DNA of 64,000 nt. Origin: Flammulina velutipes. Its lineage: Eukaryota; Basidiomycota; Agaricomycetes; Agaricales; Physalacriaceae. Made by a program: the position numbers and the translations under genes. Position 1 is the stretch's first letter. Each line of letters opens with the position of its first letter. The DNA lies in NCBI GenBank assembly GCA_011800155.1, contig CM022368.1, positions 3,162,001 through 3,226,000 on the forward strand. The letters run 5' to 3'. Positions 298-62,144 of the stretch are shown here, piece by piece. The notes under the pieces are model-generated. The model searched no databases, was not told where the DNA came from, and was given only the letters and a program-made list of their open reading frames with translations.

Positions 298-2638
298 TCA
301 CTGTTGTTGGCCAGCCTCCCATGCGTCCAGTGCGATAGAGTCCTTGAGTGCAGATCCGGGTTCCCAGGAGTCGTGTTCAACTCCGTATCCAGCCCAGCGT
401 ACAAGATAGCGCATTCCACGGCCCGCGCGCTTTGAGTCTATGATTTTCTCGACCGACCACTCCTCAATCCCATCTTCAGTGACGACAGGACCAGGCTTGG
501 GTAGTTCTCGTTCGGGAAACAGTGCAGGATCATTTGGGTGGTATGGTTTAAGGAGGGAAGCGTGGAATCCGGGGAACGTGCGACGATGGCCAGGGAGTTG
601 GAGGGTGTATTCAGATTTTTCTGGGAAGGCTTTGACGACGGTGTAGGGGCCGTCGTTCCGGGGCATGAACTTGGCAGTGCGTTTCTTTCCTGCTCGCTTA
701 TATTCGTTTCGGCGGTTCTTGGTGGATAGCATGACCTGGTCTCCTACAGCGTAGGCGATCTCTGGAGCGCGATGTTTGTTTGCGTGGAAGGCCTGGCGGA
801 TTTTGGCAGCGAGCAGATTATCTTGGGCATCCTGGACGTCAGTGGTGATACGCGCAATAATGGCTTGAGCGGTGGACTCTTCCGGAGTGGCATTGGCAGG
901 TAAGGGAGCAAGTGGGGGAATAATACGAGGTGAGCGACCAGTTTTCAGTTGGAAACCCGAGTATCCAGTTGACGCGTTGACAGTGTTCATGATGGCAAAA
1001 CGAGTGCGAGGTAGAGCAGCGAGCCATCCCTTCTGTTGTCTATCGACATAATATCGAAGAGCTTGATTGACTGTTTTGTTGGTGCGCTCGCTTCCGCCAT
1101 CAGTCTCGGGATGATATGCGGTGGACATCTTCAGCTTGACGCCAGTGAGCTTGTGGAGCGCGGCCCAAACCTTGGATATGAAAAGTTTGTCTCGGTCAGA
1201 GACGAGCTGCAGCATTAGACCGTTCTCGCAATACCACTCGTCGAAGAGGACCACAGCGAACTCTTCGGCGGTGATTGTGGATGTGATAGCAGCCATGCGG
1301 ATGTCTGCGCCTCCAAGGAGGTCAGTGAAGGTGACGATAGTATCCTTCCCATTCTCGACGGGGAGTGGTCCGACAAAGTCAAGACCAACGACATCGAAGC
1401 GGTTATCTGGGACAGGAAGTGGATGAAGGGGACCAGGTGTTTTGGAGGTACGACTCTTGTTGCGTTGACATTCAGTGCATGACGGGATATAGGCTTCCTC
1501 CAAGTCACGGCGCATATTTGGCCAGTAGTAGGATCCGCGCAAGGCAGCGTAGCTTTTGTCAAACCCAAAATGACCTAGCGCATCATGCGCGAGACTGTAT
1601 AGAAGTTCGCGGACCTTGAGGACCCGCGGGATGACGAGTCGTCGACCAACATAGAGAAGGCCTGTAGCAGCATCGAACATGGCGCCTTCGGTACTGGACA
1701 GGTTGGTGAGGAGTTGTTGGCAAAAATCATCCTCGGTATAGCCTTTCTTGATACTCTCAAGGAGTTCAGTATCAGCGGTGATGACGATGGACGTGGAGGC
1801 AGCCGTGAGGCGTTCACGTCTAGATTGGACTGGGTCTTCCCCAGTGCCAGAGCGTGCTAAACAGGCAGCGATGATGACTGGTTCTGGGATGGTTGGCAGC
1901 TCGTCTGGTAAACGGGAAAGTGCATCGGCAACAGTGTTATCTTCGCCTTTGACATAGTGGATTTCAAAGTCGAACTGGGCAAAGTGCATGGCCCAGCGAG
2001 CTTGTCGGCGAGACATATCCTGCTGTGAGGAGAAGTACTCGAGGGTGCGGTGATCGGTCATGACCTGGAAGGTGACATTTAGAAGGGAGCTACGCCACTT
2101 CTTCAGTGCTTTGACGATGGCGAGGAGTTCTTTCTCGTGCGTGGGGTAGTTTCGCTCTGCGCTGTTGAGCTGATAAGACTCGTAGGCAACGGGACGGGCA
2201 GTTTCCCAAGTCTCTCCAAAGCTGAGGACAGCTCCGGTACGGCGGTCACTGGCATCGGTGGTAACAAAGATCTGTTTGGTGGTATCCTCGTAGTCGATTA
2301 CTGTGAGGCATTCTCGACTGAGGACTAGCTTTTTGATGGCGTCAAATGCGATACGATGAGCTGGCGTCCAGGTAGGGAGTGCTTTGTTATACTCCTTGGC
2401 TGTTAACGGCGTCAAAACGGCAGTGTGTTCAGCTAGCGCTGGGAGGAAAACGGCAATGTATCGGACTAATCCGAGAAAGGAGCGGACGTCTGTGGCTGTC
2501 TTTGGAGTAGGCCAGGACATAATACGGTCCACCTTGCGGGGATCGGCAGCGATGCCTTCCCGAGAGATGACGTGTCCGAGGAACTCTACGCGAGTGAGAA
2601 AGAGGTCGGATTTCGTTGGATTACAAATGAGGCCAGCT
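298..2638 (-). CDS. Retrotransposon pol, C-terminal part: end of RT, RNase H, integrase, chromodomain
   Basis: This is the downstream half of the interrupted polyprotein, open from the KDZ junction at 2638 to the stop at 298. In order it shows the RT thumb (FLGHVISREG), an RNase H domain (VTTDASDRR, HEKELLAIV, MTDHRTLEYF, VADALSRLP), the HHCC zinc region of integrase (H..GHFG then CTECQ), the DDE integrase core (GLDFVGPLP, VSDRDKLF, AYHPETDGGSERTNK), and a terminal chromodomain (VEKIIDSKR, YLVRWAGYG, DSWEP). No stop or frameshift is visible. Because the insertion separates it from gag and the start codon, it cannot be translated as part of the original polyprotein. Confidence 0.93.
2632..2638. 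repeat. Left target-site duplication of the KDZ element (GCCAGCT)
   Basis: GCCAGCT here and at 16075-16081 flank the inserted element. Removing the insertion plus one copy restores an uninterrupted RT reading frame (Arg-Glu-Ala-Gly followed by Leu-Ile-Cys-Asn), which proves the boundary. An 8-bp duplication with one mismatch is also possible. Confidence 0.9.
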
Positions 2639-2725
2639 CACCTGTGGCAGCAGGCAGATAGTAACATGTAGGCATATATCCCTATTGCTATTTTGTAATC
2701 CTGGGGATCTATCCCCAGGCAGGGT
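2639..2725 (+). repeat. Left terminal inverted repeat of the KDZ element (degenerate)
   Basis: Reads outward-in with landmarks GTAGG, ATCCCTATTGCTATTTTG and GGGGATCTATCCC. These match, at equal spacing, the reverse complement of 15988-16074. The outermost 34 nt are only weakly similar; the next 50 or so are clearly alike. It contains the palindrome CCTGGGGATCTATCCCCAGG at about 2700-2719, one mismatch from perfect. Confidence 0.7.
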
Positions 2726-2947
2726 ACAGGTCAGGGTATATGTCTCCTCTCCAAGTCTCCCCCGGGCCCAGCCGAGCCTATCCGATGTCATGTGATCTCA
2801 GTTACATCATATCCCGCCTTGTTCCTGCCCGTGCCGCCTTGACACCCGCCCTCGACAGCCCAAACGGGGCTAGAAAGCACAGAATTTATATATTCGACCT
2901 AAAACGGACCATAGATATTGTATTACATATCATTTTAATCAAGATAT
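2726..2947. other. Noncoding left subterminal region of the KDZ element
   Basis: About 220 nt between the inverted repeat and the transposase stop codon. No convincing ORF. It is C-rich near 2750-2860 and AT-rich toward 2947, and presumably contains the transposase 3' end. Confidence 0.5.
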
Positions 2948-5900
2948 TTACACCGCCACCTTGTTTACGCGCCTCTTCTTTCCCGTCCTCCCTAGCTCGT
3001 CCGTCGACTCGAATCGTGCCTTAAAATACCCCGCCAGTCGCTTCCGTGACATAGCCTGCCGTAGCGCATAAGCACGTTTCCCACCTGCAATACGGTCTGC
3101 GCCACATTCTTCGTTGCCGCGCCGTACCCATTCACCCCGCTCGTACTCTAAAGAGGCTAACACCCGTCGCATCTCCTCCTCCAGAAGCAAGACCTCCTCT
3201 CTCCACCTCTCTTTCCGTGCGTATCCCTTCATCCATTCCACTCTGATTGCTGAACTCAACAATTAGATTGGTTCGTGAATGTGATAAAAGAACCACTTAC
3301 ATTCGTGCAAGAGCATATCACTGTCAGGATCTGGTACCTCCTGAGCCGTCCAGATCCAACTGAGCTTCCGTCGACTTGCCCCACGGACTTCGGCTCCATT
3401 GTTTTCCTCCTCTACCTCAGCGTCTGCCACCATGCCTCGTTTCCCATCTCGGCCAAGCTTTGCCAAGCGTCTGGCCCGCTGCCCATCATAGTCGGTGACG
3501 AAGCGCGTGGAAACATCTGCGTCCTCGAGTACACGGAAATGTGCCCATTTTCCCTCACCATCCAAAGCCACTGCAGCCCGTCGTGCCACACGGTATCGCC
3601 GAACAGCGCTGTCGATACGATCACTGAGACGATCCAGCGCACCACGTGAACGCGTAGTCTTGGTCTGGCCTCGCAGGTTGGCGTTTCGGAACCGAATGAG
3701 ATGAGATTTCGAATGCAGCCGCATTCGCAGAGTAGAAAGTTGGGTCGAACACTGGGCTTCCCGCAGACGAGATTCCGTTGAGAAGATTGCACGGCGATAG
3801 GAAGTGCCACGCTCCGCCTGCGGAATTTCGGAGGGGAGGAAGAGCTTGACATGCTCAGCCTCTACTGGCCTTGGAGAAACATTCGCCTTCCGAGCAGCCT
3901 GCTCTCGCTTCAGCGTATCTGCTTGCTCGTACTCTGAGACCAACCCCAGTGCATGTGGCATATGCACCGCCTGCAGGCCACGGAAGCGACGCAGCTTCTT
4001 CCAGAAGCCTGTGCGACGGGATTGAAGTAAACGAGCATGGCCGTCATCCTTTTGTCGTGCCTTTCTCATATTCTTGATGCGAAGCCTTTGGAAGAATCAG
4101 TTGAATGTCATTAGAGAGAAAAACGACGTACTGCGTGCTTTGAATATCTAGCCCCAAGCGAATGAACGCCAAGACACCTGCGACACCCTTTCCTTCCGGC
4201 GAAGAGCCCCCGCGAGGATTGTTGCCATTCGCCTCATCCTGTTCTTCACGCAGCTCTTGCAGCTCTTCTCGATCTAGCTCCATGTGGACCTTGTCCACAG
4301 TGATTGTATCTGTATTCTCTCGTCAGAACATACAAATATTCAACAGTTAAATGTCGGGGACATACCTTGTTTATACGACGCCTCATATGGATTTGCCACC
4401 GTTTTTTCTTTGCGCTGAAGGTACTCTTGGGCGTGCCAATCATTAAGCCATGTCATCCAGCGCTCGCGTAGGTCGATGTCGAGTGTGGCACTGGTGGTCT
4501 TGAAGTTTTCCAATTGCTCCTTTTGCTCTTTTTTGGCGACTTCATAGCGGCGTCGTAGTAGAATACCTATCATTGAGTGTCAGTATTTCACAACATCAAT
4601 GAGAAAATCCCACTAACCGAGTCCCAGGTTTTTCGTCCAATTGGCGTCGTCCATAGTGTCTTCCAAGCTCTCATGCCGAGTATTCTCATGCATCTCTTTC
4701 GTAGCCCAGGCCTTCGGTCCGAGTTTACTCCAGACGCGCTCCACTCCCTCACCGTCAGTCATGGCAGCGCCTTGTTTGTAGCGTAGAGACTCTGCCGACG
4801 AGCAAACATCCTCGTGTACTCCTCCATGCCAGACCGGCAACCCCACACAAATCTTTCGGCCCTCGACCTCCTCGCGCAGGATAGCTGGCAGGTGCGTCCG
4901 ACGCTCCGTCATGTTGATTTTCCATTGACAGCCAACGTCGTATGACACGATGTACTGCAGGAGCTCTTCACCCAGAATCGAAGCCCAGAAAATATAATCC
5001 ATGTTGGCATATCTATATTGACCGTGAGCCAAAAATAAAACACGTATAGGGATGAAATACCTTTCACCTTTGAGAAGGTCACCCAATCCCAGTGGTCGTA
5101 TAATCTCGTGACGCGTGCAAATACAACCGCCGACCCCAGTGGCCCGCAGACCTTTGGAGAGGCGAGTATCCTTCTGCATAAGAGCGGCAAACGCGATGCA
5201 ACTGCTGATCTGACAGATTCATTAGTGTGTGTGTGTGAATGACACAGCGAGGATGATACGTACATCATCTTCTTTCACATAGTTTTTCAGATGCGTAAAA
5301 TAGCTCTCGTGTGGGACGAAACATCCTAGGCCATCCGCCAGGATCGAGTACTGCTTATTCTTGCTCTTTGCACGAAGTCGATTTTCCATGCGAAAACAAG
5401 CGTCCATGCCGAGCACAAGCGCATACTTGAATCTTAGAAATCCCGTTAGTCTCATCGACATCGAAGACCAGAGGAGCTTACTGGAGATTTTCATCCACTT
5501 CCTTCCAATTCTCTGGAAGATTGACGTTCGCCCTTGGGCATGCCCAGCACCGAACAGCAGCAGAGCCCCAGGGTGCCGTGCGCACCCCTCCCTTGAGATA
5601 AGCCACCCCAGATCTCCGCATCCGGTCCAAGTAAGAGACTTGTTGCGACATCAAGCCAAATGACTTGTATCGGTCAATGACAAACTCCTGGCCCATGGGA
5701 TCAGTCAGGCGCTCCAGCGTCGTGACATAGTCGCGGACGTTCACGTTCGCGATAACATTGAGGCGACGAAAAGTGCGCAGACATTCGAAAGTCGCCAGGG
5801 TCCGGGGTTGTGCGGTGGATGCGGGATACCATCCCATGCGGATATACTGTCTCCACTCGTTGGTGTCGTCAGAGAGGTTGCACCCGCAGATTGAAGTCGA

Positions 5901-7293
5901 CACAGTATGGACTCCATTGACATGCATGACCGTTACTGTTCTGAGCGCACCAGGTACCGGACACGGTCCACCATTGTGACCTAGCTGATAGCAATAGTCC
6001 ATATCGTGGAGTGACGTCCGAGAGAAGTGACCTTCCGGCGTCCAGACCTACGGCAATATAAGTTTCACATTAACGAAACTGGATGCTCTAAACTCACCTT
6101 GAGCATATGAAGGGGGGTGAATGCATGCCGTTTGAGGCAACATGAACGACACTCCAGAAATTCGCCGCATGTTGTACATTTATAGAGGCGAGTCACCGGA
6201 GCGGGATTGATTTCACCAGTCGACGAAGTTGTCGTAAGGGGAGTCGACAAAGTTGGCGTAGGAGGAGGAGTCGACAAAGTTGGCGTAGAAGGAGCAGAAA
6301 CCTCACTCTCTCGAGACGTCGAAGGGGCAGGGTGCGAAGTGTGCGAACAGTCAAAATCCGGGGGCAGAGGTGAGGGGCTCCCTTGTGGCGGAGAGGGAGG
6401 AGGCGGGGGAGGGGATGTAACGTCCGTTTGTGAATGCGCCGAGGACGTAGCTAACGGAGATGCAGGTGGCAATTCCAGAGGAGCTCGACAGCTCTGACAA
6501 CAGGCCTGCGAGGGTAGACTCTCTCGAACAAATGTTTCGTCCAAGATGGTATCGACCATGGGCAGGAAAAGGGACATAGGATCATCCTATATCCATCCAA
6601 GTCAGATAAGGACACTTCAAACAGTAGAAATGATTAGCGTACTGAACTGGCGTAGGTCTTGCGCTTGCCCTCGCGAATCTCCCCCGTTTCGTCCATGACC
6701 GCCGCTGGATTGATACCCTCTTCAACATCCTGCCAAAGATCCTCCCCGTCTGACTCCTCCGATGCCACACTCCCTTCAGCGTCAGAGATATCACCTCCAA
6801 GCGCGTGCTGGTCGTACCCTCCCTGTCGACCAATCCAACTGGCGTCGTCCCCCAGACGGGCTCGTTTGGTTATGGGGACGTTGCGTGGCTCAGCGACCCG
6901 ATGGGGCAATGTTCCATCCCCAGAGAATTCAATTGTGGTATCGACATCTTGTCGAATGAAGCCAGCGACGGTGGGTGGAGGAGCACAAGGAAGAGATATG
7001 TCTGAGAGTTCCCCTCTTCTAGTTCTCCTACGAGGAATGGCAGGCTGTGTGACTCCAGGGATTGTGTATACACCTGGCAGAGGTCGACGGGAAGTTTCTG
7101 GGCCGGGATGAGGATTGCCAGATGTAGAAAAGTTTGGACGTGGGACGGAAGTCGACCCAAAATTTAGGAGCTCAAAACGGCGTATAGCTGCGAGCTCTTC
7201 TGGCGTTCGTCGGGCGTGTGTTCGTCGGTCATATGAGGCCATGAGGGCGATTCTGTGCGGAATCTGCAGTGGGCCATTTTGCGTTGGTTGCAA
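2948..7293 (-). CDS. KDZ transposase with CxC2 cysteine cluster
   Basis: A DDE-type transposase for cut-and-paste movement. I model ten exons: 7293-6643, 6586-6098, 6047-5482, 5432-5264, 5209-5061, 5012-4618, 4566-4366, 4309-4132, 4085-3301 and 3249-2948, giving 3885 nt and about 1294 aa with all phases consistent. The N-terminus (MASYDRRTHARRTPEEL) is followed by a Pro/Ser-rich linker. A CxC2 zinc-ligand cluster follows (YKCTTCGEF, CRSCCLKRHAFTPLH, then CGCN) at roughly residues 350-420. The catalytic core shows Asp in LGMDACFR (about 579), Asp in SYDVGCQW (about 701) and Glu in TDGEGVERVW (about 763), the KDZ signature. The C-terminal 400 residues are basic and helical. All catalytic residues are present and there is no stop. 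An in-frame Met at 7242 is an alternative start. Confidence 0.93.
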
Positions 7294-7676
7294 GAGAACA
7301 GAAGTAAATTAGTGACGTACGACAGCACAGCACGTGGCTCTGTTTCCTCTTCTCCCTCGACAATCTTGCTTCGTCGTCTGCGTCGTTCGAAAAGGTCTTC
7401 GCTTGCGCGTCTCTGGCAGGATATGTGAGGATATGTGGGGTCCAATTACCAGATCTCCGTCTGGCGCTGTGCTAATTGGTCTGATTTTTTCGGGACTATC
7501 TGCTAATTGGTCTGATCCTCTGCGCATTCACCAGGGAACATTACCCCTCCCAATTTGGCTGATGGTGGACCACCAGCGCATGGGTATTCTTCCGCTTATC
7601 TGTGCTAAGCCTTCAGACTCAAAAAGGGGGCCTGATACTTACGCTCCCAACGCACCACCTCTTCTCGCGTTGAACG
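7294..7676. promoter_or_regulatory. Divergent promoter between transposase and first accessory gene
   Basis: This 383-nt gap separates the transposase start from a plus-strand gene. It holds an exact 15-bp tandem repeat, GCTAATTGGTCTGAT, at 7471-7485 and 7502-7516 (31-bp period). Each copy contains ATTGG, the reverse of a CCAAT box. A looser copy (CAATTTGGCTGATGG) follows near 7551. I infer shared control of the two divergent genes. Confidence 0.5.
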
Positions 7677-8166
7677 ATGCCCAAGTTGCCATCGACCATC
7701 AAGTGTGCCACTGTCTCCACTCCTAGTGTGGTGAAGCCCAAAGGTGTACCCAAGGAGAAGGCTTTCCGTATCAGTAACGGTTAGTTGCTTCCGACACTGC
7801 CTTCAAAGCCTGTACTTACCATGTCAATCCTTCTAGCCACGTCTTTTTATCTGACGTCCGCCCAGTTTAAATTCCTGAGAGCCCAGCGCCCGGAATACCT
7901 GGCGCATCGGCGCAATAAGGAGGAACGGTCCCGATATTTGCAAACCCTCTGGCGCACTTTTTTGGTCACCTATCCTGAACACGATATTCCCCCATTCCCA
8001 GAGGACGACGAGATGGTTGAGCGTTTCCATCTGTCCCGCGCGACCGTACGTGCCCCCGTTTATCCATGGCTGTCAACTAATCAATCGTTCACAGGCTCTT
8101 GGACGCAAACTGGACAATATCATCGTGTTCGCTCAAGGGGTTCAGCATCGTGTCAACGAGACGTAG
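7677..8166 (+). CDS. KDZ accessory protein 1, 127 aa, unknown
   Basis: Three exons (7677-7779, 7837-8045, 8095-8166) join in frame with good GT-AG signals and give a 127-aa protein. It starts MPKLPSTIKCATVSTP, has a Lys/Pro-rich N-terminus, then a compact, probably helical core (FKFLRAQRPEYL, RSRYLQTLWRTFLVTYP) and ends QHRVNET. There is no signal peptide or membrane segment. I do not recognise the family. The FLRAQRPEYL...YLQTLWRTFL pattern, with aromatic residues spaced among basic ones, is reminiscent of small DNA-binding helical domains, but that is a guess. It is transcribed divergently from the transposase across a repeat-bearing promoter, which suggests co-regulation. Confidence 0.72.
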
Positions 8167-8307
8167 AATTATATTGTGTAACTCTTTGTGTATGGGTCGC
8201 TAAATGCAGTGCTTCTCTTTATAACCCTTGTGAATAAGACAGACGCCACACGTGGCTGTGCATTCGGGGTCCTATCATCGCGGGTGTCCTTCTGTCATCT
8301 CACTACC

Positions 8308-8650
8308 ATGTCACAACCTTCTCAACACTTGACCATGGCTCGCCGTCCTGTCTCGCACAGTGCAACTGGTACGTGGCGATAGACAATTATCTAGTCACTC
8401 ACCTAATAGGGTTCGTGGTGCAGAATCTCCGGCCAATGCAGACGCGCGCTTGATGGATCGCTTCTACCGTCGAATGGTCTTCCGCGTCTTTGCAGCTACC
8501 ACTTGGCACTACAACACTCATCGATATCCATGTTCATTTGATAGTAATTGTCATTGGCAGCGACAGTGGCAGATTGTAGATGGGGAGTCTGTGGAGAAAG
8601 TTTGGCAGCGTCCGAGGGGGACAAGAGGGAAGACCGGGACTCGATTGTAA
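8308..8650 (+). CDS. KDZ accessory protein 2, about 95 aa, unknown
   Basis: Two exons (8308-8368 and 8424-8650) join in frame and give about 95 aa, starting MSQPSQHLTMARRP. The second exon encodes a Trp/Arg-rich segment (RFYRRMVFRVF, TTWHYNTHRYPCSF, NCHWQRQWQIVDGE) with two Cys residues, and ends in a basic tail rich in Arg, Gly and Lys. No family is recognised. It lies 141 nt after accessory gene 1 on the same strand. The acceptor chosen (GTGGTGCAG) is the only nearby one that keeps the long second-exon frame. An additional upstream exon cannot be excluded. Confidence 0.55.
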
Positions 8651-8766
8651 CCTTTTCGTTGCGCGGGAGCGCTCAGTAACACTTTCCCCAATGCATCACC
8701 ACTTCACTGGCACAACATTGTACAGGCTATGTATAATCGCGCGAATCCGAAAATGATCACTCCCAC

Positions 8767-9550
8767 TCAAAGCTCCTCCATCTTCACCTCGATCTTCACC
8801 TCTGTCTTCACGGTAACATTGTCCCCCGTCCTTGCGCACATAGAATCAATCCACTCTTCCCTTGTCCGGTCTCTAATGACACCTGCCTCCCCTTGCACCT
8901 CTTGCAGCTTTCTATCCCATGCCGCATCATCGAAAAGATATTCGAACCGACCATCAGGATCGACGGAAGCCACGGACGCCTTGACACTGGCGTATTTGAA
9001 AGGTCGAGCGTAGCGCATCAGAGCCCCTTCCATGGATAACCAAATATGTGGCGCTATATTCAACCCTCGCTGTAAAGAGAGACGAAATTCTCCCGAGCGA
9101 CGCAAGCCACAGGCGAGGTTGACCAAATCCTCATGCTGGTAAACGCCCATTTGTAGAAATTGATCCGCGACCGACTCCAAGGAATTATCACTGAGCCAGT
9201 CAAGCACACCAGCATGAACGAAGCGGGGGTCGGGCGACAACGCCAATCCAGGGCCTAACCTGGAGGTATAGTAAATCAACTCAGGATTTTCAGGAGAATA
9301 CTCTAGAGCTGCCAACGATGAGGTTCGTTGAGAAACCATTGCGTGCAGGTAACTCACATTGATAGCTGGCCGCCTGTTCAAGAAAATAACGTTCCTGCAG
9401 CGGACGCGCTTTGCGGAGCGCCAACTGGATTTGCCTGCGGACTCGGTATCAGGACTGCTCATGTCACTCCAAAAGATAATCATACTCGCAATGCTTGGCC
9501 GCGAAAATGGCCCGTAGGTGCTCTCTCTCGGTAGGAACAGTGATAGACAT
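8767..9550 (-). CDS. KDZ accessory protein 3, 227 aa, unknown
   Basis: Exons 9550-9486, 9434-9358 and 9308-8767 give 684 nt and 227 aa; all phases fit and the first intron has a CTGAT branch site. The protein starts MSITVPTEREHLRAIF, continues through a basic helix (LALRKARPLQERYFLEQ), and has a conserved-looking core (VADQFLQMGVYQHEDL, HIWLSMEGALMRY). The C-terminus is charged (VKTEVKIEVKMEEL). It is soluble, with no signal peptide and no recognised catalytic motif. The QFLxMGVYxxEDL stretch resembles a short SAM-like helical motif but is not sufficient for a call. It is convergent with accessory gene 2, 116 nt away. Confidence 0.68.
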
Positions 9551-9879
9551 AGGGTGTATTGGTGGTGGTAGGTAGTCACTGATGAAGCAAGCATTTCATA
9601 TTGGACGGTACGACGAATGATATTGCTGAGAACGAGCGTCAGCCAGTATGTTCTATATGTTCCATGAAACAATTATTGTGGACGCCTTTTTTTAATGTAA
9701 ATAATCTGGAAAGGGTTATAGAGATGTGCTGAGTCGACGGTAAGGTATAGATACAATTTAAACATAAATATCCAATAGAAATCCAATAAGACGGAACATT
9801 GATCTTGAATCCGTACGCACTTTAAGCAACAACATTGATCTCTCTTGGGATACTCGCCACATTTGTCGAACGCTCAAGC
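9551..9879. promoter_or_regulatory. Divergent intergenic region between accessory genes 3 and 4
   Basis: A 329-nt AT-rich stretch between the starts of a minus and a plus gene. It presumably contains both promoters. I see no strong repeat or recognised factor site. Confidence 0.35.
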
Positions 9880-10638
9880 ATGGGGCGTAAGCGAATTCAC
9901 CTCACAGACGATGCTAAGGCTGAGGCTAAGCGTCGTGACCGGATGAAATGGTACGACCGGTAAGCATTTGACCTCTGTACCAACTCTATCATATTCCTAT
10001 GCACTAACACACATTCACCAGGAATCGGAAGAAAATCCTGAAGTCATATAAGATTCGCAAGGCTGAACAAGCCGCCTCCAGCACTACTCCCAACCAAGTG
10101 AAGGTTGGTACAAAGCATGTGGCGCTCCCCACCAAAAGTTTGACTTTGACCGGGAACTCTATCAAACCTTCGTCTGATCATGCAAGCAAAAGGTATCCTT
10201 TCCTATTGTGTAGGCGCTTAGGTTGTACGACTGAGAGCTTATTTTAGTGACCATGATTTTCCCGAATGCGACACTGCGCCACAGATGTTATTGGGCCGTG
10301 TACAGAAGCAGATGCGCGAACTCCAATCCTTCATGCAGTCCGACACCTCTGATTTTTGCGCTCGCGTTGCCGAAGAGATAACACTTCTTCCCACCCAGAA
10401 GGACCAGCTTGAGTCCATCACAATATACTTGGAACGCGTGGCGGCGTTCATCGATGGAGCGCGTCCTCACGCGGTAGCAATTTTCAATAAATTCGGACCG
10501 AACCAGGAATGGAAGGAAGCGAGACACGTTCAGAACAGCATGTCCGTGGTCATGGAGTACCTGGATGAAATCCATCATCGCGTTGAAACCGGGGATCTAG
10601 CTGCAGCGCTTGACCTAAATTTATTGTCGTTCCAGTGA
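9880..10638 (+). CDS. KDZ accessory protein 4, 213 aa, basic N-terminus
   Basis: Exons 9880-9959, 10022-10192 and 10248-10638 give 642 nt and 213 aa. The first 45 residues are very basic (MGRKRIHLTDDAKAEAKRR, WYDRNRKKILKSYKIRK) and look like the basic arm of a DNA-binding protein. Proteins beginning GRKR-x-H-x-T with an Arg/Tyr/Asn-rich arm are common in mushroom genomes, but I know of no assigned function. A Ser/Thr-rich linker follows, then a helical acidic domain (LGRVQKQMRELQSFM, QLESITIYLERVAAFI, VVMEYLDEIHHRVE) that could pair as a coiled coil. Its stop at 10638 lies 4 nt from the stop of the next, convergent gene. Confidence 0.75.
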
Positions 10639-10642
10639 TAGT

Positions 10643-11601
10643 CTAGGGCATAGGGATAATACATATCTCATTCTTCCGCAATGCCGCCGAATATTTCTGT
10701 CGCGCGACCGTGATGGAGTAAAATCTCTCATGGAGAGAAGTGGGTACGCCTACAGCGGACAAATGAGCCTCAATGCTAGAAATTTTTAAGCACGCTGATA
10801 ACCGGAATAAGATATCTAACACACTGGGAAGCATATATTCCCGGGCGCTGCCCTCGATATACGCAATAATATCGCCGGTATTGGTCTGTTGGACACAACG
10901 GTGTCAACGGTGGCGCTGCAGGGGATGTCGGATCCAATGGAACAGGGAGAGTGCGAGGACGCGGAGCCTCTCCATCACGACCGCCAAGCCAGCCCCTAGC
11001 CTCTGCATATTCCAGCGCGTTTTGTGCCAGTGCCAGTGTGGCGTACCCGAGTACACAATTGCCACTAATTCCTGAGGTAGCAGCACGGGCACTCTGCCAG
11101 CCCGTGTGGAGCCCAGAAGGCCGTCCGATAAAGACAATGTAGAAAGGAAATTTCTGACGCTTCTTGGAGCGCTTTCTGAGAGCGACAACATCAGATCCCG
11201 CCACCTGGGCGTTACCTGCAGTCGCCCTGAGAATCCTGTCAGCGTGTGGTGAGACATCCGAGATGATATCGTACCAATCAGCTGTAGTGGACTCCCCCCT
11301 CGCCGATACAACACGGTAGAGCGTGGCATCTCTATCGCCCGAGTTTGCTGACACCCCACATCAGTGGGCAGTATTGATCCATTGCAGCAATCAGATACGC
11401 ACCTGCACCTGCACCTGCATCTGCACCGTTACCTGCCTCCTCTTCCGAAATATCCAGCGCACGGATGAGGCGAGAGATCTCATCGTCCTCCATGAGTTCC
11501 AAATCAATACTGTCCTCTGCACACGTCGCGTACTCTTCTGAGCTCTCGGATTCTGACGACGAGCTCACCCAGATGACAGGAAAGCCTTGAATATCAGCCA
11601 T
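10643..11601 (-). CDS. KDZ accessory protein 5: two RNase H1 N-terminal (viroplasmin-like) domains
   Basis: Exons 11601-11403, 11347-10825 and 10775-10643 give 855 nt and 284 aa. After an acidic Ser/Glu-rich N-terminus come two domains that read as the RNase H1 N-terminal/caulimovirus VI fold, which binds RNA:DNA hybrids or dsRNA. The first is at about 130-180 (FYIVFIGRPSGLHTGW with a helix ending ALEYAEARGW). The second is at about 220-270 (YYCVYRGQRPGIYASH followed by FYSITVARQKYSAAL). The second appears only when the 10776-10824 intron is removed, which supports the model. A basic stretch (LRKRSKKRQK) precedes the first domain. There is no RNase H catalytic domain. The family call rests on motif recall, not a search. 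Confidence 0.75.
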
Positions 11602-11708
11602 GGAAGTAACAGAGCGAGAACCAGGTCCATTGCAAATTGAACGCTACAATAGAACTATGTATCGGTTCCTGTGGTACTGCGTGCATCGAAATAATTATGT
11701 CCGACGGC

Positions 11709-12339
11709 TCACAAATCCGGGCGGCTGCAAACAAACATGTGAGTGACTGGTATGATTGATCAACAGAAGGTGCGTACATGCAGATGCGCATCCAGTCGGA
11801 GTTGCGAGCAGCGTTGAAATGGTCAACGGCATCGCGTAGGCTATCTTCCTTCTTGCCATGGGCTGAACCGACCTTGCGCGTAGCCTGATCGACTTGGAAA
11901 CTAAAGAATACTTGAGCAGGGGATCGAGAATAATTGGAAAATGGAGACCCACGAATACTTGAACACACCGACGAAGACCCCGCGGGTAACGACATACCAC
12001 TCACGAGCCTGTTCTTCGGCCGCGATATAGACCATATCAATCGTAGGAACGCTGTAGTACGGGACACCGTGGACAACTGTGGTGAGTTGAGTCGCCTGCT
12101 GGGTCGCCTGCGGGGCCGGTACGGTTTGGATAGGCCCAGCTAAAGACAGAGGTCAGAATTACGTCGGACGACAGGGAATATTCCTTACTGATTACACTGT
12201 ATTCACTGAAACTCTCGCTCTCCGCGTCGATTTCTGTGCGGGATGTGGAATCCCCATCGTCGTTCGACGGCGACGAGCAGCGCAGGTCGGGCTGATCGTT
12301 GGCGTCAATGTTGTCGATGGTTTCTTGGATTTGGGTCAT
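11709..12339 (-). CDS. KDZ accessory protein 6: single RNase H1 N-terminal (viroplasmin-like) domain
   Basis: Exons 12339-12189, 12139-11959, 11900-11778 and 11724-11709 give 471 nt and 156 aa, with all four phases consistent and a 5-codon last exon ending in TGA. The N-terminal half is acidic and Gln/Pro-rich. The C-terminal half reads WYVVTRGVFVGVFN followed by a helix ending HFNAARNSDWM, the pattern of an RNase H1 N-terminal-like domain. The domain is assembled only across the 11901-11958 intron. It lies directly upstream of accessory gene 5 on the same strand, so the two may have arisen by duplication. It lacks any catalytic motif and probably acts by binding nucleic acid. Confidence 0.7.
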
Positions 12340-12538
12340 GAGGGGAAATATAAAGAAATTGATATTGAGGGACTGACCTTTAAGGAATTTCGACGTGGTC
12401 GAATTTGGCTATAGGGGTTTGATCCCACGTGGTGGCATGGCGAATGTGGCGGAAACTAGTATTGCCAATCGGCGGGGTCGTGGTCCGTGTTGTCCCTCAT
12501 TGGCCCTCGTCGTATCTATCTGCTTGCCGTCAGTCAAG
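12340..12538. promoter_or_regulatory. Divergent promoter between accessory genes 6 and 7
   Basis: A 199-nt gap separates the starts of a minus and a plus gene and presumably contains both promoters. I see no clear repeat. Confidence 0.35.
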
Positions 12539-15118
12539 ATGCCCCGCAAAAATCCCAAGAAAGCGAAGGATCAACGCGAAACCAATAAAGGTTGGGCGGA
12601 CGGTGCTCGAGAGGAGTTTTTGGATGCCTACATCGACGCGTTTGCGGAAGCCTTGGGCCAGGGTGCTAGCGCAGAGGATGAAGTGTTGCGCAAGGTGTTC
12701 CGCCAGTATTTCTACCACTTCGACCTTGATGACACCGTCGAACCGGCTCTGCCTCTTAAACCCTTCGATGAGGCCTGGGTTGCACCACTTGAGGACCTGC
12801 CACTCGAGGAATTGCGCACCAAGAGACAGCTACGGGAGAAGAAGAAAAAAGTGAGCCTTTCCGTGTTCAACATCGTTATATTGTACTCACAAAAGTCGTA
12901 GGCCATCCGTGCATGGTTGTTGTATCGAGCCTTGAAGTTAACGTCAATTCGGGCTACGGTGCGCCGTCGCATGCTCAGCGACGCCTACTTGGCGTTGCTG
13001 AATAGGGTGGGAAAACTGGGCCTCCGCCCTCCGAAAGCACGGTCAGCAGTCCAGGAATGGCAAACGCAAAATAAGAAGGAGGCGTCGCGTATCGTGAAGG
13101 ACCTTTGGGACGTTGAGGTCAATGCGGGGAGGCAAGAGATTCCGACGAGGGGAGGGATCTGTCCAAAGTTTCGCCAGGAGACGGTCCTCGCCCACTTCCA
13201 CTCGTTCAGCCCCGAAACCCAGAAGACGTGGGCAGAGACCGCGAAGAGGGTGGCTGACGTGAAGAAGGCGGAGTGGAATCGCGTTTACAATGGCCCTCCT
13301 TCGACGGCGCCTGAGGATCGTGCTGCGTGAGTTGCATTGTTATTACACATGATTGTAAAGGCTCACACTTTATACAGTTGTCTTAAAGCTCTGCCGACTT
13401 TTTTGCAGCCTGTCGCCGAGGGTATCATGGCTCTCACAGGCCTGATGACGATCGTTCATGTGGTTGGTCCTATGGGTGCGCTGGCTGGAGAGATAGGTGT
13501 CGTGAGGTAAGCAAAGTTGACCTTCGAGGACACACAACGGGCTGACCTTTTATCTAGTGTTTGTTCAGGAAAAAACCTGGACGTTGTGCCCGTTTCTGTC
13601 GCCAAGTGGGAGCCAACTGCTTACGAGGCATGGCGGACTCATCTGGTTAGGTACGCCAATACAGCGTACACCCAAACCGACCGAGACAACGTGAAACTGG
13701 AGGCAACACCGCAACTTCCAGCGGACTTCAAAGGCACTCTATTTGAAGATGACACACTGGATCATGTCGATACGGCAATGCAGGAGCAGGTGGCGGCAAA
13801 GGTTGCTGAAGGGCTGGACGATTCGGGCAACGATTCAAGTGCCGACGAGGATAGCGACGACGAAGGGGCTCCAGGGCCGAAGAAGAGGGCTGCCGTAGAG
13901 GAGTCGTCCTCCAGGAAACGCCAGAAGACGGCAAATACTGGCGTGAAGGAGAAGACGGCAGATACTGGCGTGAAGGAGATGTCAGTAGCGGAGAAGGCGG
14001 GTTTGTTGGTCCGCGTGAATGGGAGGTTGATATCCCAGTACGAGTTGGACAGGGAGGAGAATATTCGGAGGAACAAGGCGCTGCTGGAGGGATTACATAT
14101 CAACATGGATGCTTTGCCGAAAGCGACTGGGAAGAAAGCGCGTCCGATAGCAAAGGATAAGGAGGGCGCTAAAGAGGTCGTTGAACGGCGCCAGTCGGGA
14201 CGGCTGAGTGGCAAGCCTGCAGTGTCTGGCGAGGATGAGCCCATGGATGTCGACCAGCCCGACGATCATGACATACCGATGCAAGTAGATCCACCTGTAA
14301 CAGAACCAGCTGTCCTCGCTACTCCTGCGCCATCTGCCTCCGTCGTCGCAATCGTTCCCCAAGCTGCCCCATCCGTACTCAGAGTTGTTCCCGCCCCACC
14401 CACGCCAGCCGAATTCACAGTCGTTCCACCCACGCCAGCGGTCATGCCCGCCATGCCTGGAATCGCAGTCGTTTCAGCACCACCCGTGCCAGTCGTCACT
14501 CCCGCCCTGCCCGTAGTCGCAGAAGTTCCCGCTCTTGCCCTATCCACACCTGAACTTGCAGGTCCAGGAACGCAGGTAGACGACGAGGCGCGCGAACTGC
14601 TCATGGAGGCCCCACCTTGGTTTTTGTTGCCTTATCGTGTGTTTGCTGGGCCGGATTGGGGTGAGTCGTGGAGGAATTTGCTAGAAGTGTTCGTGAAGTT
14701 GGAGGGGTCAGTTGAATTCGCGGTCGCGGAGGGGTATTTGCCGAACAATGGTCGACCAAAGATCCTGTCAGACTGGGTAGGCGATGGGCGTTTGAAACCG
14801 AAGAAGGGCGGAGCAGCGAGGAAGATGTTGTTGTTGAAGGAGAAAGAAGTTCCAGTTTTCAAAGCGGCATTTGTGGCGTGGTGGGATTCGATCCAGCCTC
14901 CGTGGAGGAAAGAGAGTGGAGAGGGTCGATGGACTCGGAAACGCCATGGTCAAGATTACGGTGCCCTGGATGCTTGGGGGCAGAATGGCTGGTTGTCGGT
15001 CGTTGCGTGTCTTTTTTGGTGGAGACAGGCGAAGGTAGGAGACGAAGAGTGGGAAGAGTACGTAAAGGACGCCGCGTGGTTGATGGAAGGGTTAAAGATA
15101 CGTGGGTACAACGAGTGA
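12539..15118 (+). CDS. KDZ accessory protein 7, about 800 aa, basidiomycete-specific family of unknown function
   Basis: Four exons: 12539-12850, 12902-13326, about 13379-13504, and about 13557-15118. The N-terminus is MPRKNPKKAKDQRETNKGW, followed by an AFLDAYIDAFAEAL-like helix and an AWLLYRALK segment after the first intron. The middle is acidic and Lys-rich (EDSDDEGAPGPKKR), with two MDVDQP/MQVDPP-type acidic motifs and then a long Pro/Val/Ala low-complexity stretch. The last 170 residues are rich in Trp and look folded (WFLLPYRVFAGPDWGESW, ALDAWGQNGWLSVVACLFWW). The architecture, including an NGxLSVVxxLxWW motif near the end, recurs in many agaricomycete hypothetical proteins, from memory. 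Lys-rich clusters suggest nuclear location. No catalytic motif is seen. Confidence 0.78.
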
Positions 15119-15987
15119 CGGTCTGAAGTGATACTGGTAGACTACTTGTCGCGTCTTTGCGACCGAGTTTTATTTTACATGTACTTAGATGTAACTTAGA
15201 ACATTCAAAGGGGCCGGAAGTTGCCGCATGATGTCATTTGGATGGACTTGATGAATTTTACATGAACGTACACGTAGATTTTAATTTGTAGGCTTTGGCT
15301 AGAGATATGTTGTTGTTCCTCGCATGCCAGCCTGACGCCAATCTTATTTCTATGTATCGATCCAATGGGTACGAAGCTCAAAGCTGCTATTAATAATTAG
15401 TGCAACAGCAAGGTAAGGGAATTGCTAACAGTTTGCCCGTCATTCAGATGTTGCTCACACTTTACTGTGTGATCACTGGGTGGGCTACAATCCCGCTGGT
15501 AAAGGGCTAATGTAGGTGCGCCACCAACACGGCAGTGGCCGGATATGGTTATTCTGCGTAAATCTAATTGGCGTGTCAGTGGGGAATAGTGCAAACATTG
15601 AACTACAGCACGTTACAGAGTTAACGCTGCCGCTACCGGCGCTATCCAAGGTGCGCCACCTGCACGGCAGCGGCCGGGAGCTGTCATTCGGGAGATACTG
15701 AGCTGGTCACCTGCAGTTGACATGGAATAGGTGCGATCAGCGCAAGGTATCACTGAGCGGGTTGGGTAACGATCCTGATTGAAATGTAATTATATGTGCG
15801 CCACACGGGATCAGCGGCATACCGGATACTGCCGGGCTGAATATATTGGGACGTATTTGCGGGGATTGATGGCGGGAAAAGGACTGTCCCAAAGGAGCTT
15901 TCCGGTGTGGTGTACCTGATCATACATTGGCGGGGCGGGAGGCTTACCAAGCTGTGGCAGGTACAGGCCAGAACAGGCATTCCCTCA
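15119..15987. other. Noncoding right subterminal region of the KDZ element
   Basis: About 870 nt without a gene between the accessory gene 7 stop and the right inverted repeat. It holds a TCACAC-N6-GTGTGA inverted repeat near 15455-15472 and the subterminal repeats listed separately. It is much longer than the left counterpart. Confidence 0.6.
15515..15823 (+). repeat. Subterminal repeats, right end of the KDZ element
   Basis: A 28-bp unit, GGTGCGCCACC-NN-CACGGCAG-Y-GGCCGG, occurs at 15515-15542 and 15650-15677 with 25 of 28 positions equal. A shorter relative (GTGCGCCACACGGGATCAGCGGCATACCGG) starts at about 15796. Spacing is 135 and 146 nt. Subterminal repeats are common transposase-binding sites in DNA transposons. 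No good copy is seen at the left end. Confidence 0.7.
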
Positions 15988-16074
15988 AGCCCAGTAGGGA
16001 TAGAACCCCACACTTGCAAAACAGCGTTAGGGATAGATCCCCTACCTTTTGTCTGTGTAGTACAGCTATGGCTC
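15988..16074 (-). repeat. Right terminal inverted repeat of the KDZ element (degenerate)
   Basis: On the minus strand it reads GAGCCATAGCTG, then GTAGGGGATCTATCCCTAACGCTGTTTTG, then GGGGTTCTATCCC. It aligns with 2639-2725 with the GTAGG landmark at the same distance, 34 nt, from each end. Overall similarity is moderate. Confidence 0.7.
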
Positions 16075-16081
16075 GCCAGCT
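16075..16081. repeat. Right target-site duplication of the KDZ element (GCCAGCT)
   Basis: Exact copy of 2632-2638. See that entry for the frame-restoration argument. Confidence 0.9.
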
Positions 16082-18342
16082 TCACGGAGGGCATCTAGGA
16101 CAAGCTCAACATTCCGAGTGTGTTCTTCGAGCGAGTCAGACCAGATGATGATATCGTCTAGATAGACGTGACAGATTTCCCCGATAAGGTGTCGAAGGGC
16201 ATCTGTCATACGGCGTTGATGAGTGGCGGGAGCGTTGCACCCACCCTGTGGCATGACGACCCATTCATAGAGTCCCCAGGGTGTGCGTATAGCAGTGAGA
16301 TGGATGTCATCGGGGTGTACGCGGGTTTGGCTGAATGAGTTGGTCATGTCGAGTTTGGCCCAGAGTTTTCCTTTCCCGCAGTCGGCGAGGATATCGTCAA
16401 CGCGGGGCAGGGGATAACGATCACGGACAGTGTTCTTGTTGAGTTCACGATAGTCGTTGACCATGCGAGGTGGGACAGTGTGGTCGGGAACTCCATTCCG
16501 GTATTTAGGTACACAGAAGGATGGAGAGGCGTACTCCGAAGACGATGGACGTAAACGTCCAGCTGCTAGGTGATCGTCAAGGAGGGCTTTCCAAGCTGCC
16601 TGGTTCTTCTTGGCAGCTGCGTAACCACGACCATTGTTGACCTTGGTGGGGTCTTTGAGTCGTATGCGATGATAGATGTGGTCGGGAATATCTCCAACAT
16701 CAGGGAGACGATGGGTGAAAAGATCCGTGTAGCGCGCCTTCATCTCTGCTTCCTTTTGCTTAAGGTGCGCTTCGAAGGCTAGGGTTTCCATTCGATCACG
16801 AACTTGTAGCATGACCGCAGCGGGAAGGAGAGTATGAGCGAGAGGAACTGTAAAGTCTCGTTTGGGTTTTGGTGGTTTCTTGATGACAGGTGGTGGGGGT
16901 GATGCAGGTTTATCAGAGGCCCACTCACGGGGAGGATATAGTGGGGGGTTCAGCAAGTCAAATCCAGTTCGCTTATCGATGGCAGTGCGGAGTTCAGCAT
17001 CAACAACGATTTTTTCTTGTAAAAGGAAGGGTAGTCCGAGGATAAGGGGAATGGTACAGTTATGAAGAACTTTTGCTCGATGAACACCCGAGGTCCAGCT
17101 CCCATCTTTCGACGACACTTGCAGCTTCACATACTCCCGCGAACCCAGCCCATGACCCGACAGCGACGCCAAATTATCCTCTTGCAAGGGTAACTGGAAA
17201 CGACGTAGACCAAGCTGGGTGACCAGCTGGTCGTCAATCACTGTAGAGGGGCAACCATGGTCAATGAGCGGTTTAATGAGTATGGGGAAGTCGCGTATAG
17301 CGGGACCAGTGATGGTCATGTGAGGGATGAGGTGGGGGACAGTGAAAGGGACGCACGAGTCATCAGACGAATCATCGACGTCCTCGATCTGGGTGGTGTA
17401 GACAGCGCCTGAGGTTTCTTTCTTGACGGTGGCAGGTTTTGTGGCTAACGCCATGTCAAGAGTGAGGGGACGATAGGTGGCAGGGTTGACACGGTTGTTG
17501 GGGGGAGGAAGACTGCGCATTGGGCAGGAGTCGCTATAATGACCAGCGTAAAAAGTGCGACAATTGAAACATCCCTCGTGTGTAGAGAGAAGTGCACGTT
17601 CAGCTTCAGTGAGCTTTGGGACACTCGCAACAGTATAGCCTGTTCCAGCGCTAGGTGCGGAAGTGAGACGTTGAGCGAGCGGGGGATTGGAAATGCGAGA
17701 GAGTAGGGCAGGAGTGGCAGCAGCTTTCCGGTGGGTCCGTTCGGCACGTTGTTCGGAAACAATTCTCCTGACCTCGTCTTCATCCTTGACGAGCTTCTCT
17801 TCTCGAGCCTTGACCTCCTTCATCCAGACGGAGAGGGAGTTGGCGAGAGGAGGCTCACTGCGGATACTATCACGAAGACGGGTACTCATGTGTGAGATGA
17901 TATGTTGCCGAAGTCCAGCCTCAGGTAGAGCATGAGTGGAACCAGCGTTAGAGAGGGTGGCGTTGCTATCCTGAAGCGAGATGGCCCAATCCCAAAAGGG
18001 TCGCTTCCCCTGTTGGGAGAGCTGAATGGAGTCGAGGAGTTTGACGTCCCAGTCAAAATCCAAGACCTGGTTCTGAATCTCCTTGAGAAAGGAGGGAAGA
18101 CCCATAGCGTTGATACGGGTCTTGTCGGCCCGATACCATTGTTTCAGGATAGGTTGTTCGAGACCGTCGGTGACGTACTTGACAATGTCAGCGGCATCAA
18201 TGGCGCCATGGCGCATATATTTTTCACAGGCGTCAGAGTATTCGACGAAGACGGCAGGAGTGACCTTTCCTGCAGAGAGGATTGGACAGTCCTTGAGTTT
18301 TGCCTGTTTGACGGATGCGGTTGTGGGGGTTGTGGAAGACAT
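16075..18342 (-). CDS. Retrotransposon gag-protease-RT, N-terminal part
   Basis: The open frame starts at ATG 18342 (MSSTTPTTASVKQAKLKD) and runs into the KDZ junction. Gag spans about residues 1-290 and ends in a zinc knuckle CFNCRTFYAGHYSDSC, spaced CX2CX6HX4C rather than the canonical CX2CX4HX4C. The aspartic protease active site reads LIDHGCPSTVI, with His where DSG or DTG is usual. RT follows with CVPKYRNG, RMVNDYRELN, AKLDMTNSFSQ, FxxPQGG-like VMPQGGCNAP and the catalytic YLDDIIIWS. The reading frame continues in the other half (2638-298) once the insertion and one target copy are removed. The host copy of this protein is truncated after the RT palm and is followed by a few KDZ-derived residues and a stop near 16066. 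Confidence 0.93.
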
Positions 18343-28800: not shown

Positions 28801-30029
28801 CCAGTTACGGCATGCGGCTCTTGGTCGCGCGGGCTGCTCGTGAGAATCGCAATGAGCAATTTTAGCGTCGCAGTGTCAACACCATGTCTATCAGGCCAAT
28901 CAAATGACTTGATGACTGCTGCCCAATTAATGGTGACGGACTGCAGGTTGTTTAGTCAGGTAGCACATTTGAATAGTAAAAGACGCACGTAAGACGACAA
29001 AGCTCTAACAAGGGCACCGACATCACATAGGGTTGCACCTTCCGTTGCGTGGCGAGCCAACGTTGAGATAATCTCCAAGACTTGTCCATCACGTGGCGGT
29101 GTTGCATCCGTTATACCAAAGCGTTCCAGTACGGCGCGCACTATCTCTTGGTCGCTGGTGAGCTCGGGTCCGAGCTGCAGAAGCGCTTGCACGAGTGTCG
29201 TCCCAGGCGCCAAGCTGCAAAATTAATGTTGAGAAAAAAGAGGCGCATACGTAAGACGCTTAATACTCACCTCAACGATGGCAATATGTGATGTAGCATT
29301 GGAATAACAGTGTCGCGCCCGTATTTAGTCTGCGCGGCTTGCAAGAGCGCGTTCCTTTCTTGGTAGTCGAGGATGGGGGATTCGGAAGAGTCAGAGAGCA
29401 AATTGGACAACAATTTTCCAACTTGGCCTGGAGACAAGTCGGCGTGGTCGAAGGACGGGTTCGAATGGTACAACGTTGAGATGGCTTCCTTGACCTCTGC
29501 TTTGATCACAGACACGGCTTGTGCTGCGAGTTCCGGGCGGGTAGCAGATGCCACTGATGACGCCAATACCAAACGTTCCAATGGGTGAAGGCCAATGCGT
29601 TCCACAAACCGGACAAAGTCGAAATGCCTAAAGATATCGCCTTCCCCCTTGTCTATACCGTCACGAAAGCGATCTGCGAGGAAAGGGTCGCGTGCAAGAC
29701 GTTGAGTTTCTTGAACGAGAAGGCGAAGCGTGAGGGTATTGGATGAGTCAAAGGATGAAGCGGGGGGATTGGGCGCTCTGGATTGTGAATGGACGATTAA
29801 GCGGCGAATGAAATGCAGGTAGGTGTCTATTCCATGCTGCTCCGAGAGCTAATAACAGCCGACGCTCGATGTTGAGTGATAAGTAGAGGCCAGGAAAAAA
29901 GACACGTACCGAGCGAATCTCAATTTGGTTCCTCTCGAAATTGTCCTCTGTGAGTGTTGACAGAAGGAAGACGATTTGGGCCCGGACGATTGTATGGATG
30001 TTCGTGGTACTTGTTGGCGGATTGTCCAT
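22877..30029 (-). CDS. NOT1: NOT1, scaffold of the CCR4-NOT deadenylase complex
   Basis: A gene of over 7 kb with a dozen or so short introns, encoding roughly 2100 residues. CCR4-NOT shortens mRNA poly(A) tails and NOT1 is its backbone. The start is taken at 30029 (MDNPPTSTTNIHTIVRAQI). The N-terminal HEAT region spans about 30029-28000. The MIF4G domain that docks the CAF1 deadenylase lies near 27150-26500 (ILFIVNNLAPSNFESKL, NPWLMAVIGLLAEFYF). The DUF3819 domain follows near 26080-25700. The NOT-module-binding C-terminal domain is near 23930-22877 (HPWGALATFIELLRN, FWNKDFINVAPEVK). The last exon is ambiguous: a GTGAGT donor within it allows a spliced end at 22877, while read-through ends at 22916. 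Confidence 0.95.
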
Positions 30030-61908: not shown

Positions 61909-62144
61909 CGTCGGCGACAGCGAAGACGAAGTGTAAGGCCCGGGCGGACAAGGGTACACACTAATTCTACTGGCCGTGCCGCGATGCCGGCTTACGTTGC
62001 TTTTGTTTGGTCGCTCACGCTCACGTGTAAAAGACAGCTCACTTCCAACATTCCTCCTTGTTCTCATACCTCGACGTTGTCCGGCACTCTTGCCTTTTCT
62101 CGTTTGCACGATACCCTTCACTCTACTCGACCCTTTACGAAAAC
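61909..62144. promoter_or_regulatory. Divergent promoter between EDE1 and UBC11
   Basis: 236 nt between two divergent start codons. Presumably shared promoter DNA. No specific site was recognised. Confidence 0.4.

Follow-up and report, generated by a model that had tools for sequence, protein, structure and literature searches.

A KDZ transposon of Flammulina velutipes with a recurring set of partner genes and mirrored subterminal palindromes

The stretch of DNA analyzed here, called the window below, comprises 64,000 nucleotides of the Flammulina velutipes genome (contig CM022368.1; C1:3162001-3226000) and contains a complete KDZ transposon of 13,436 bp at positions 2639..16074. We interpret this element, with a probability of roughly 0.6, as a member of a Kyakuja-like KDZ lineage whose transposase is accompanied by a fixed set of partner genes, and as a cut-and-paste DNA transposon that was recently mobile and is probably autonomous. 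The original prediction, made from the letters of the window, had regarded the seven genes next to the transposase as a cargo set; cargo appears to be the wrong term for these genes, named g2 to g8 here, which look like core genes of this lineage, a set that contains no TET/JBP oxygenase.

In order to follow copies of the element and the recurrence of its genes, we searched one genome, the 38.1-Mb genome of Flammulina velutipes. The window element is labeled W and other copies A to K, with X13 and X5 as further copies. The DNA search revealed a family of copies at approximately 65-75% identity, plus K, a copy on C8 with 99% identity; the whole KDZ protein is 72-76% identical within the family. 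The order and strands of the genes in the window are KDZ (-), g2 (+), g3 (+), g4 (-), g5 (+), g6 (-), g7 (-) and g8 (+). Counting matches on the expected strand only, we found KDZ, g2 and each of g4 to g8 in nine of nine copies (A, C, E, F, G, H, I, J and K), always in the order of the window; the KDZ match is partial in copy I. The original prediction had proposed asking whether other KDZ elements contain this gene set in an unchanged order, and within this genome they do; a near-identical set is present elsewhere, and the set is therefore not peculiar to the element in the window. Over the 9.3 kb compared, copies A and B share 99.98-100% identity; for copies C and D the figure is 99.94-99.98% over 9.1 kb (B and D were compared in part). 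Because the members of these near-identical pairs are located at different targets, the elements must have moved recently. In copy K, an insertion of 714 bp is located within g4; it shows a 9-bp duplication and the ends AGGGTTT/AAACCCT and is, perhaps, a non-autonomous MULE-like element.

The boundaries of the element, which had been claimed to be precise, are exact to the base. The heptamer GCCAGCT is found on both flanks (2632..2638 and 16075..16081) as a 7-bp target-site duplication (TSD), and the intact target is present 14 times elsewhere. When the two flanks were joined into a 220-bp query and searched against the genome, 16 rows were obtained: 14 cross the joint without the element and two are the window's own halves. 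Thirteen of the uninterrupted targets span positions 1-220 of the query at 96-100% identity, and one spans 14-220 at 96%. The host site of the transposon is the pol gene of a Ty3/gypsy-type element, which is interrupted by the insertion; its two parts are located on the minus strand at 298-2532 and 16066-18342, with the reverse transcriptase on one side and the RNase H, integrase zinc-binding and chromodomain regions on the other. The left terminus, CACCTGTGGCAGCAG (2639..2653, plus strand), has a comparable start, CACC.GTRGC, in A, B, C, D, F, H, J and K, and the right terminus, TACAGCTATGGCTC (16061..16074, plus strand), has only a degenerate inverted match to it. There are no long terminal inverted repeats (TIRs), only this degenerate match of about 13 bp and subterminal palindromes. 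A 7-bp TSD was observed in every one of the nine copies whose two ends were both read (W, A, B, C, D, F, H, J and K), and all nine TSDs differ; E, G, I, X13 and X5, in which one or both recognized ends are absent, are outside this count.

The association of the partner genes with KDZ genes was examined across the genome. Loci matching g2, g4, g5 and g7 are found no more than 16 kb from a KDZ match in 12/12, 17/18, 12/13 and 14/15 cases, respectively (55/58 in total), while the zones extending 16 kb around the 90 KDZ loci can, by calculation, cover about 8% of the genome at most. These 58 loci are mostly copies of one family and are therefore not independent. The lone exception for g4, g5 and g7 is, each time, one truncated copy on C13. 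Relatives of these genes are thus not confined to unrelated host loci, the situation in which the original prediction would have considered the cargo accidental. The g8-like loci were collected with two queries (31 loci and 19 new ones), and 37 of the 50 have a divergent KDZ locus 3-16 kb upstream (23/31 and 14/19), whereas 2000 random trials, for which the sizes of C2, C3, C12 and C21 were assumed, gave 2.2 on average and never more than 8. The other three KDZ-g8 geometries yielded 4, 5 and 5 cases. The range of 3-16 kb was chosen after a first look at 3-22 kb (25/31 loci; random 2.7%), and the 90 KDZ loci were condensed from the matches listed, out of 166; the 37 pairs use 35 of these 90 loci. 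An accidental cargo is largely refuted within this genome by the KDZ-g8 geometry and by the 55/58 loci near KDZ.

The gene set also extends beyond the family of the window element. In two distant families, D1 (C13) and D2 (C1), the KDZ catalytic domain is 49-61% identical over the matched stretches, and profile searches against a small database identified KDZ (-), g5 (+), g6 (-), g7 (-) and g8 (+) in both; g2 gave weak matches on the opposite strand (expectation values (E) of 1.4e-4 and 0.0029). D2 has the ends CACC..GGCTC and the 7-bp repeat CAATTTC, which is one of two scan candidates, with about two estimated to be expected by chance, and was picked because of its ends and an inverted match of 9 bp. 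An initial motif search left the ends of D1 and D2 undetected; the D1 sequence examined starts inside the KDZ gene. A second, distant KDZ element of 11,198 bp, N1 (C8:470440-481637), is nested in g8 of copy K. It is flanked by the 7-bp duplication AGGTGTC, has CA..TG ends, and encodes a KDZ protein with 33% identity; its partner matches are g8-like (plus strand, E 2.3e-9) and g5-like (minus strand, E 5.2e-4), with g6 reaching only E 0.013. The KDZ-g8 partnership thus extends to distant KDZ families. The label of cargo is unsuitable, given that two KDZ families at 49-61% identity have a near-complete set and one at 33% has a reduced and weaker set.

A further shared property is the arrangement of short palindromes close to the ends. 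In the window element an imperfect palindrome at 2671..2682 starts at position 33 from the left end and a second one, GGGATCTATCCC, at 2704..2715 starts at position 66; they are mirrored by a palindrome at 16030..16041 (position 34 from the right end) and an imperfect one at 15997..16008 (position 67). The motif GGGATNNATCCC is present in W, A, C, F and J at 33 and 66-67 from the left end and at 34 and 67 from the right end; the search of these five copies tolerated one mismatch to a loose form of the motif and also gave 3-9 interior matches. N1 has a different palindrome, GTGGNTATANCCAC, at 33, 67 and 100 from the left and at 32 and 66 from the right, with no interior occurrence, and D2 carries weaker, AGCT-rich repeats close to the equivalent positions. 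When palindromes at the 30-36 site were scored irrespective of their sequence, 10 of 14 matching positions were reached by 9 of 14 ends, compared with 8.0% of interior stretches. The spacing is kept while the sequence changes by lineage, which is the pattern expected of paired binding sites, and we infer that the palindromes are operator-like protein-binding sites.

Ratios of nonsynonymous to synonymous substitution rates (dN/dS) were calculated between copies. Among pairs other than F/G that gave a ratio, dN/dS was 0.06-0.09 for KDZ, 0.10-0.15 for g8, 0.15-0.18 for g4, 0.12-0.25 for g7, 0.14-0.26 for g6, 0.18-0.26 for g5 and 0.22-0.32 for g2. These ratios are rough, because the underlying dS values are 1.2-3.4, and many pairs were saturated and gave none. 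Third codon positions are the most variable in the same pairs for all genes except g3, for which W/F is reversed. Seven of the eight genes, all but g3, thus bear signs of purifying selection, and such conservation suggests that the set works together; a joint role in transposition, in target choice or in escaping silencing, as originally proposed, stays a hypothesis.

The KDZ transposase gene occupies 3021..7242 on the minus strand and consists of 11 exons encoding 1229 amino acids (6643-7242, 6098-6586, 5482-6047, 5264-5432, 5061-5209, 4618-5012, 4366-4539, 4132-4309, 3301-4085, 3085-3249 and 3021-3040, the last small exon being uncertain); KDZ models were obtained in the copies as well. The protein matches the Pfam KDZ domain (PF18758, E 2.5e-52) and contains a cysteine cluster of the CxC2 type (PF18803, E 1.1e-27). 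Fifteen residues judged to be an unspliced intron were left out of the Pfam query, and the splice-aware model agrees with this decision. The motifs MDACF, SYDVGC and DGEGVERVW are present, which we take to be the catalytic D, D and E motifs. The transposase is intact, as had been claimed, and the presence of the domain, the three motifs and a CxC-type cluster places the element in the KDZ superfamily, which was reportedly named by Iyer et al. in 2014.

The remaining seven genes were predicted to be spliced, with open frames, and intact models were obtained for all eight genes. The models are splice-aware and homology-guided with the window proteins as templates, which biases them towards agreement among copies. 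Exon counts are the same across copy models for g5 (three in 9/9), nearly so for g2 (three in 8/9) and less so for g8 (four in 4/8), and vary for g6 (three or four), g7 (four to six) and KDZ (9 to 14). The first of the partners, g2 (7677..8166, plus strand; exons 7677-7779, 7837-8045 and 8095-8166; 127 amino acids), is unassigned to any family; three-exon models were also obtained in C, E, F, G, H, I and J, and A deviates. Gene g3 (8308..8650, plus strand; exons 8308-8368 and 8424-8650; 95 amino acids) resembles the WH..H..C and [DN]GE..E.VW (catalytic-E) segment of the KDZ domain, at a Pfam E of 3.8e-4 that is below the curated cut-off. A profile of g3 proteins matches KDZ fragments of D1, D2 and N1 in small databases (E 2.8e-9, 1.6e-8 and 2.4e-5; best stretches 3.4e-7, 1.1e-6 and 2.6e-4, respectively), and g3 has neither of the catalytic aspartate motifs. 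Gene g4 (8767..9550, minus strand; exons 9486-9550, 9358-9434 and 8767-9308; 227 amino acids) is likewise unassigned. Three small unknowns had been claimed; the description stands for g2 and g4, and is corrected for g3 by its resemblance to KDZ.

Gene g5 (9880..10638, plus strand; exons 9880-9959, 10022-10171 and 10248-10638) encodes a protein of 206 amino acids, in which an invariant MGRK opens a basic N-terminus and a conserved C-terminus ends in LLSFQ (eight aligned sequences); a public protein search returned two short metagenome proteins only. Gene g6 (10643..11601, minus strand; exons 11403-11601, 10825-11347 and 10643-10775; 284 amino acids) contains an RNase H1 N-terminal (viroplasmin) domain (Pfam Cauli_VI, E 2.3e-8, 34.6 bits against a curated cut-off of 21). 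Two Cauli_VI stretches were found in an earlier model with a shorter C-terminus, and the closest solved chains are the weak RNase H1 matches 1qhk (E 0.011) and 3bsu (E 0.077). Gene g7 (11709..12339, minus strand; exons 12189-12339, 11953-12139, 11778-11900 and 11709-11724; 158 amino acids) ends in RPDL followed by a stop in W, A, F and H, and similarly in C, E, J and I. First models had joined g7 into g6, and a single gene was rejected: the short last exon of g7 divides them. None of seven g7 members gave a Cauli_VI match, and the profile similarity between g7 and g6 is weak (hhalign E 0.0063, probability 6%). Of the two viroplasmin-like proteins originally predicted, one, g6, is therefore clearly borne out, and the other, g7, only weakly. 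The last gene, g8 (12539..15118, plus strand; exons 12539-12850, 12902-13326, 13378-13506 and 13558-15118), encodes 808 amino acids with a Trp-rich C-terminal domain; a public protein search gave no match.

The absence of a TET/JBP oxygenase from the element was upheld by an exon-by-exon search with PF12851, which gave no match inside it; the possibility that such a gene was overlooked on first reading is rejected. Across the genome, the same family produced three sub-cut-off matches (C1:2940553, C8:958790 and C6:2819659), beside approximately 90 KDZ loci. Outside the element, the window also contains, on the minus strand, a host gene for CCR4-NOT subunit 1 (26136-28859), about 10 kb from the element, and pieces of genes for a serine carboxypeptidase S28 (19967-20713), an F-box-like protein below cut-off (46853-48532) and an EH domain protein (61378-62121).

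KDZ transposons are abundant in mushrooms, for example in Marasmius oreades (PMC8290104), and the Kyakuja (KDZ) transposons of Agaricomycetes were described by Kojima in 2025 (PMC12730594). In the literature considered here, KDZ elements are noted mainly for their TET/JBP genes. The window element shares with Kyakuja the KDZ transposase, the 7-bp TSD, the CA start and the lack of long TIRs, but it has no TET/JBP gene, ends in GGCTC and not TG, carries g2 to g8 and has mirrored palindromes. CACC..GGCTC termini are found in the nine copies with both ends and in D2, and N1 is the sole element with CA..TG among those read. Because the right terminus is CTC rather than TG, we describe the element as Kyakuja-like and do not file it as Kyakuja; it is set beside Kyakuja by description and not by reference proteins. 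N1 combines CA..TG ends and a 7-bp TSD with a weaker and reduced gene set. The transposons KDZ1-KDZ3 of Cryptococcus neoformans, which are about 9-11 kb long and were shown to move, have TIRs of 139-241 bp, TSDs of 4-8 bp and CxC1 (PMC12810828), whereas the window element has CxC2, a 7-bp TSD and no long TIRs; the available portion of that description contains no comparable gene set. A literature search covering titles and the beginnings of abstracts found no description of the gene set or the palindromes, and the founding KDZ paper is outside this scope, so the set is not established as undescribed, which had been the original impression.

The composition of the element allows us to propose how its parts might act. 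The transposase would work with element-coded nucleic-acid-binding partners, and either the transposase or a partner (g5 via its basic arm, or g8) would assemble at the palindromes near the ends. The g6 protein, with its RNase H1-type domain for binding RNA:DNA hybrids or double-stranded RNA, and perhaps g7, could shield the element from RNA-based silencing or handle R-loops. The g3 protein resembles part of the catalytic domain but lacks both catalytic aspartates; it may modulate the transposase by disturbing its assembly and would then be a possible brake. In bacterial Tn7-type transposons, a DDE transposase acts together with a number of proteins encoded by the element, and each end has multiple binding sites. 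The window element is similar in having a DDE transposase with element-coded partners and several sites at each end, the partnership being suggested here by conservation; it differs in its spliced eukaryotic genes and its 7-bp TSD, and no sequence relation is claimed. More tentatively, and with clearly less confidence than we place in the interpretation of the element itself, a considerable share of the KDZ transposons in Flammulina velutipes might be transposition systems of several proteins, the eukaryotic equivalent of Tn7-type machines. They would combine a DDE transposase with a protein bearing a basic arm, a large protein rich in Trp, proteins that bind RNA:DNA hybrids and a transposase fragment that is catalytically dead, and their operators would be paired palindromes at fixed distances from both ends, with a sequence diverging along with the binding protein.

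Several observations weigh against a fixed set of cooperating partners. No divergent KDZ is found 3-16 kb upstream of 13/50 g8-like loci, and 55/90 KDZ loci lack a g8 partner at the sensitivity of our search. The set itself is not uniform: tblastn detected g3 in six of nine copies, all but A, E and H; the profile search of a small database gave no g4 in D1 or D2; and N1 has no match to g2, g4 or g7. At the 30-36 site, five of 14 ends (both ends of A, the left end of C and both ends of D2) are below 10/14. The g3 protein is 29-44% identical over non-F/G pairs, and its dN/dS is 0.29-0.43 in the two such pairs giving a ratio. In the near-identical pair F/G, dN/dS is 0.74 for KDZ, 1.17 for g5, 0.72 for g6, 0.33 for g3 and 0.15 for g4; copy G, whose KDZ model lacks MDACF, seems to be decaying. 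Finally, g2 has no convincing Pfam family (no match over cut-off), g4 has none in a search with an earlier gene model, and g5 and g8 have no Pfam or PDB match over cut-off; the roles of the partner proteins are what we infer, and we count this on the same side.

The principal alternative is that the transposase alone moves the element and that the partners mainly counter RNA interference or chromatin silencing, replacing the TET/JBP genes of other Kyakuja elements. The RNase H1 N-terminal/viroplasmin domain of g6 fits this explanation, as does the absence of TET/JBP from the element, with three sub-cut-off matches in the genome, given that TET/JBP has been interpreted as anti-silencing (PMC12730594). 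However, seven proteins are many for a single task, the binding of double-stranded RNA or hybrids by g6 is predicted from its domain alone, and the stable gene set together with the mirrored end sites suggests a part in transposition itself. We consider this explanation rather unlikely by itself; it is compatible with a role of the genes in transposition, and both can be true.

Alternatively, host genes may have been captured once by an ancestral KDZ element and then carried along as passengers. Gene capture has precedents in Pleurotus Helitrons: helpo1.3 of Pleurotus ostreatus contains a viroplasmin gene, capE, described as a captured gene (PMC4289320), and resembles the window element in having a viroplasmin-domain gene inside a basidiomycete transposon, although it is a rolling-circle element. 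We sought g6 in the genome through Cauli_VI only and obtained 23 matches; those on C2 and at C3:1347763 have no listed KDZ nearby and may be host genes; together with the 13 of 50 g8-like loci without KDZ in the tested position, they speak for this explanation. Against this, the sole locus of g2, g4, g5 or g7 without a listed KDZ nearby is the truncated copy on C13, gene order is kept across near-saturated silent-site divergence, and near-complete or reduced sets are present in distant KDZ families, which makes mere passengers improbable. A chance composite of independent, separately mobile neighbors is still more improbable: nested insertions do exist, as in copy K, but the single pair of ends, the single 7-bp TSD, the clean empty sites and the copying of the whole arrangement to different targets (the A/B and C/D pairs) refute it.

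If KDZ elements of this kind do form a lineage with a fixed gene set and a geometric rule for their ends, it becomes possible to test the biochemistry of KDZ transposition, and orphan gene families would gain a home, g8-like matches alone being found at 50 loci. Should the palindromes be binding sites, KDZ systems would be distinguishable by their ends alone. One of the partners has a domain of the type that binds RNA:DNA hybrids, and if a whole lineage carries the set, it would represent a new route by which a transposable element faces RNA silencing.

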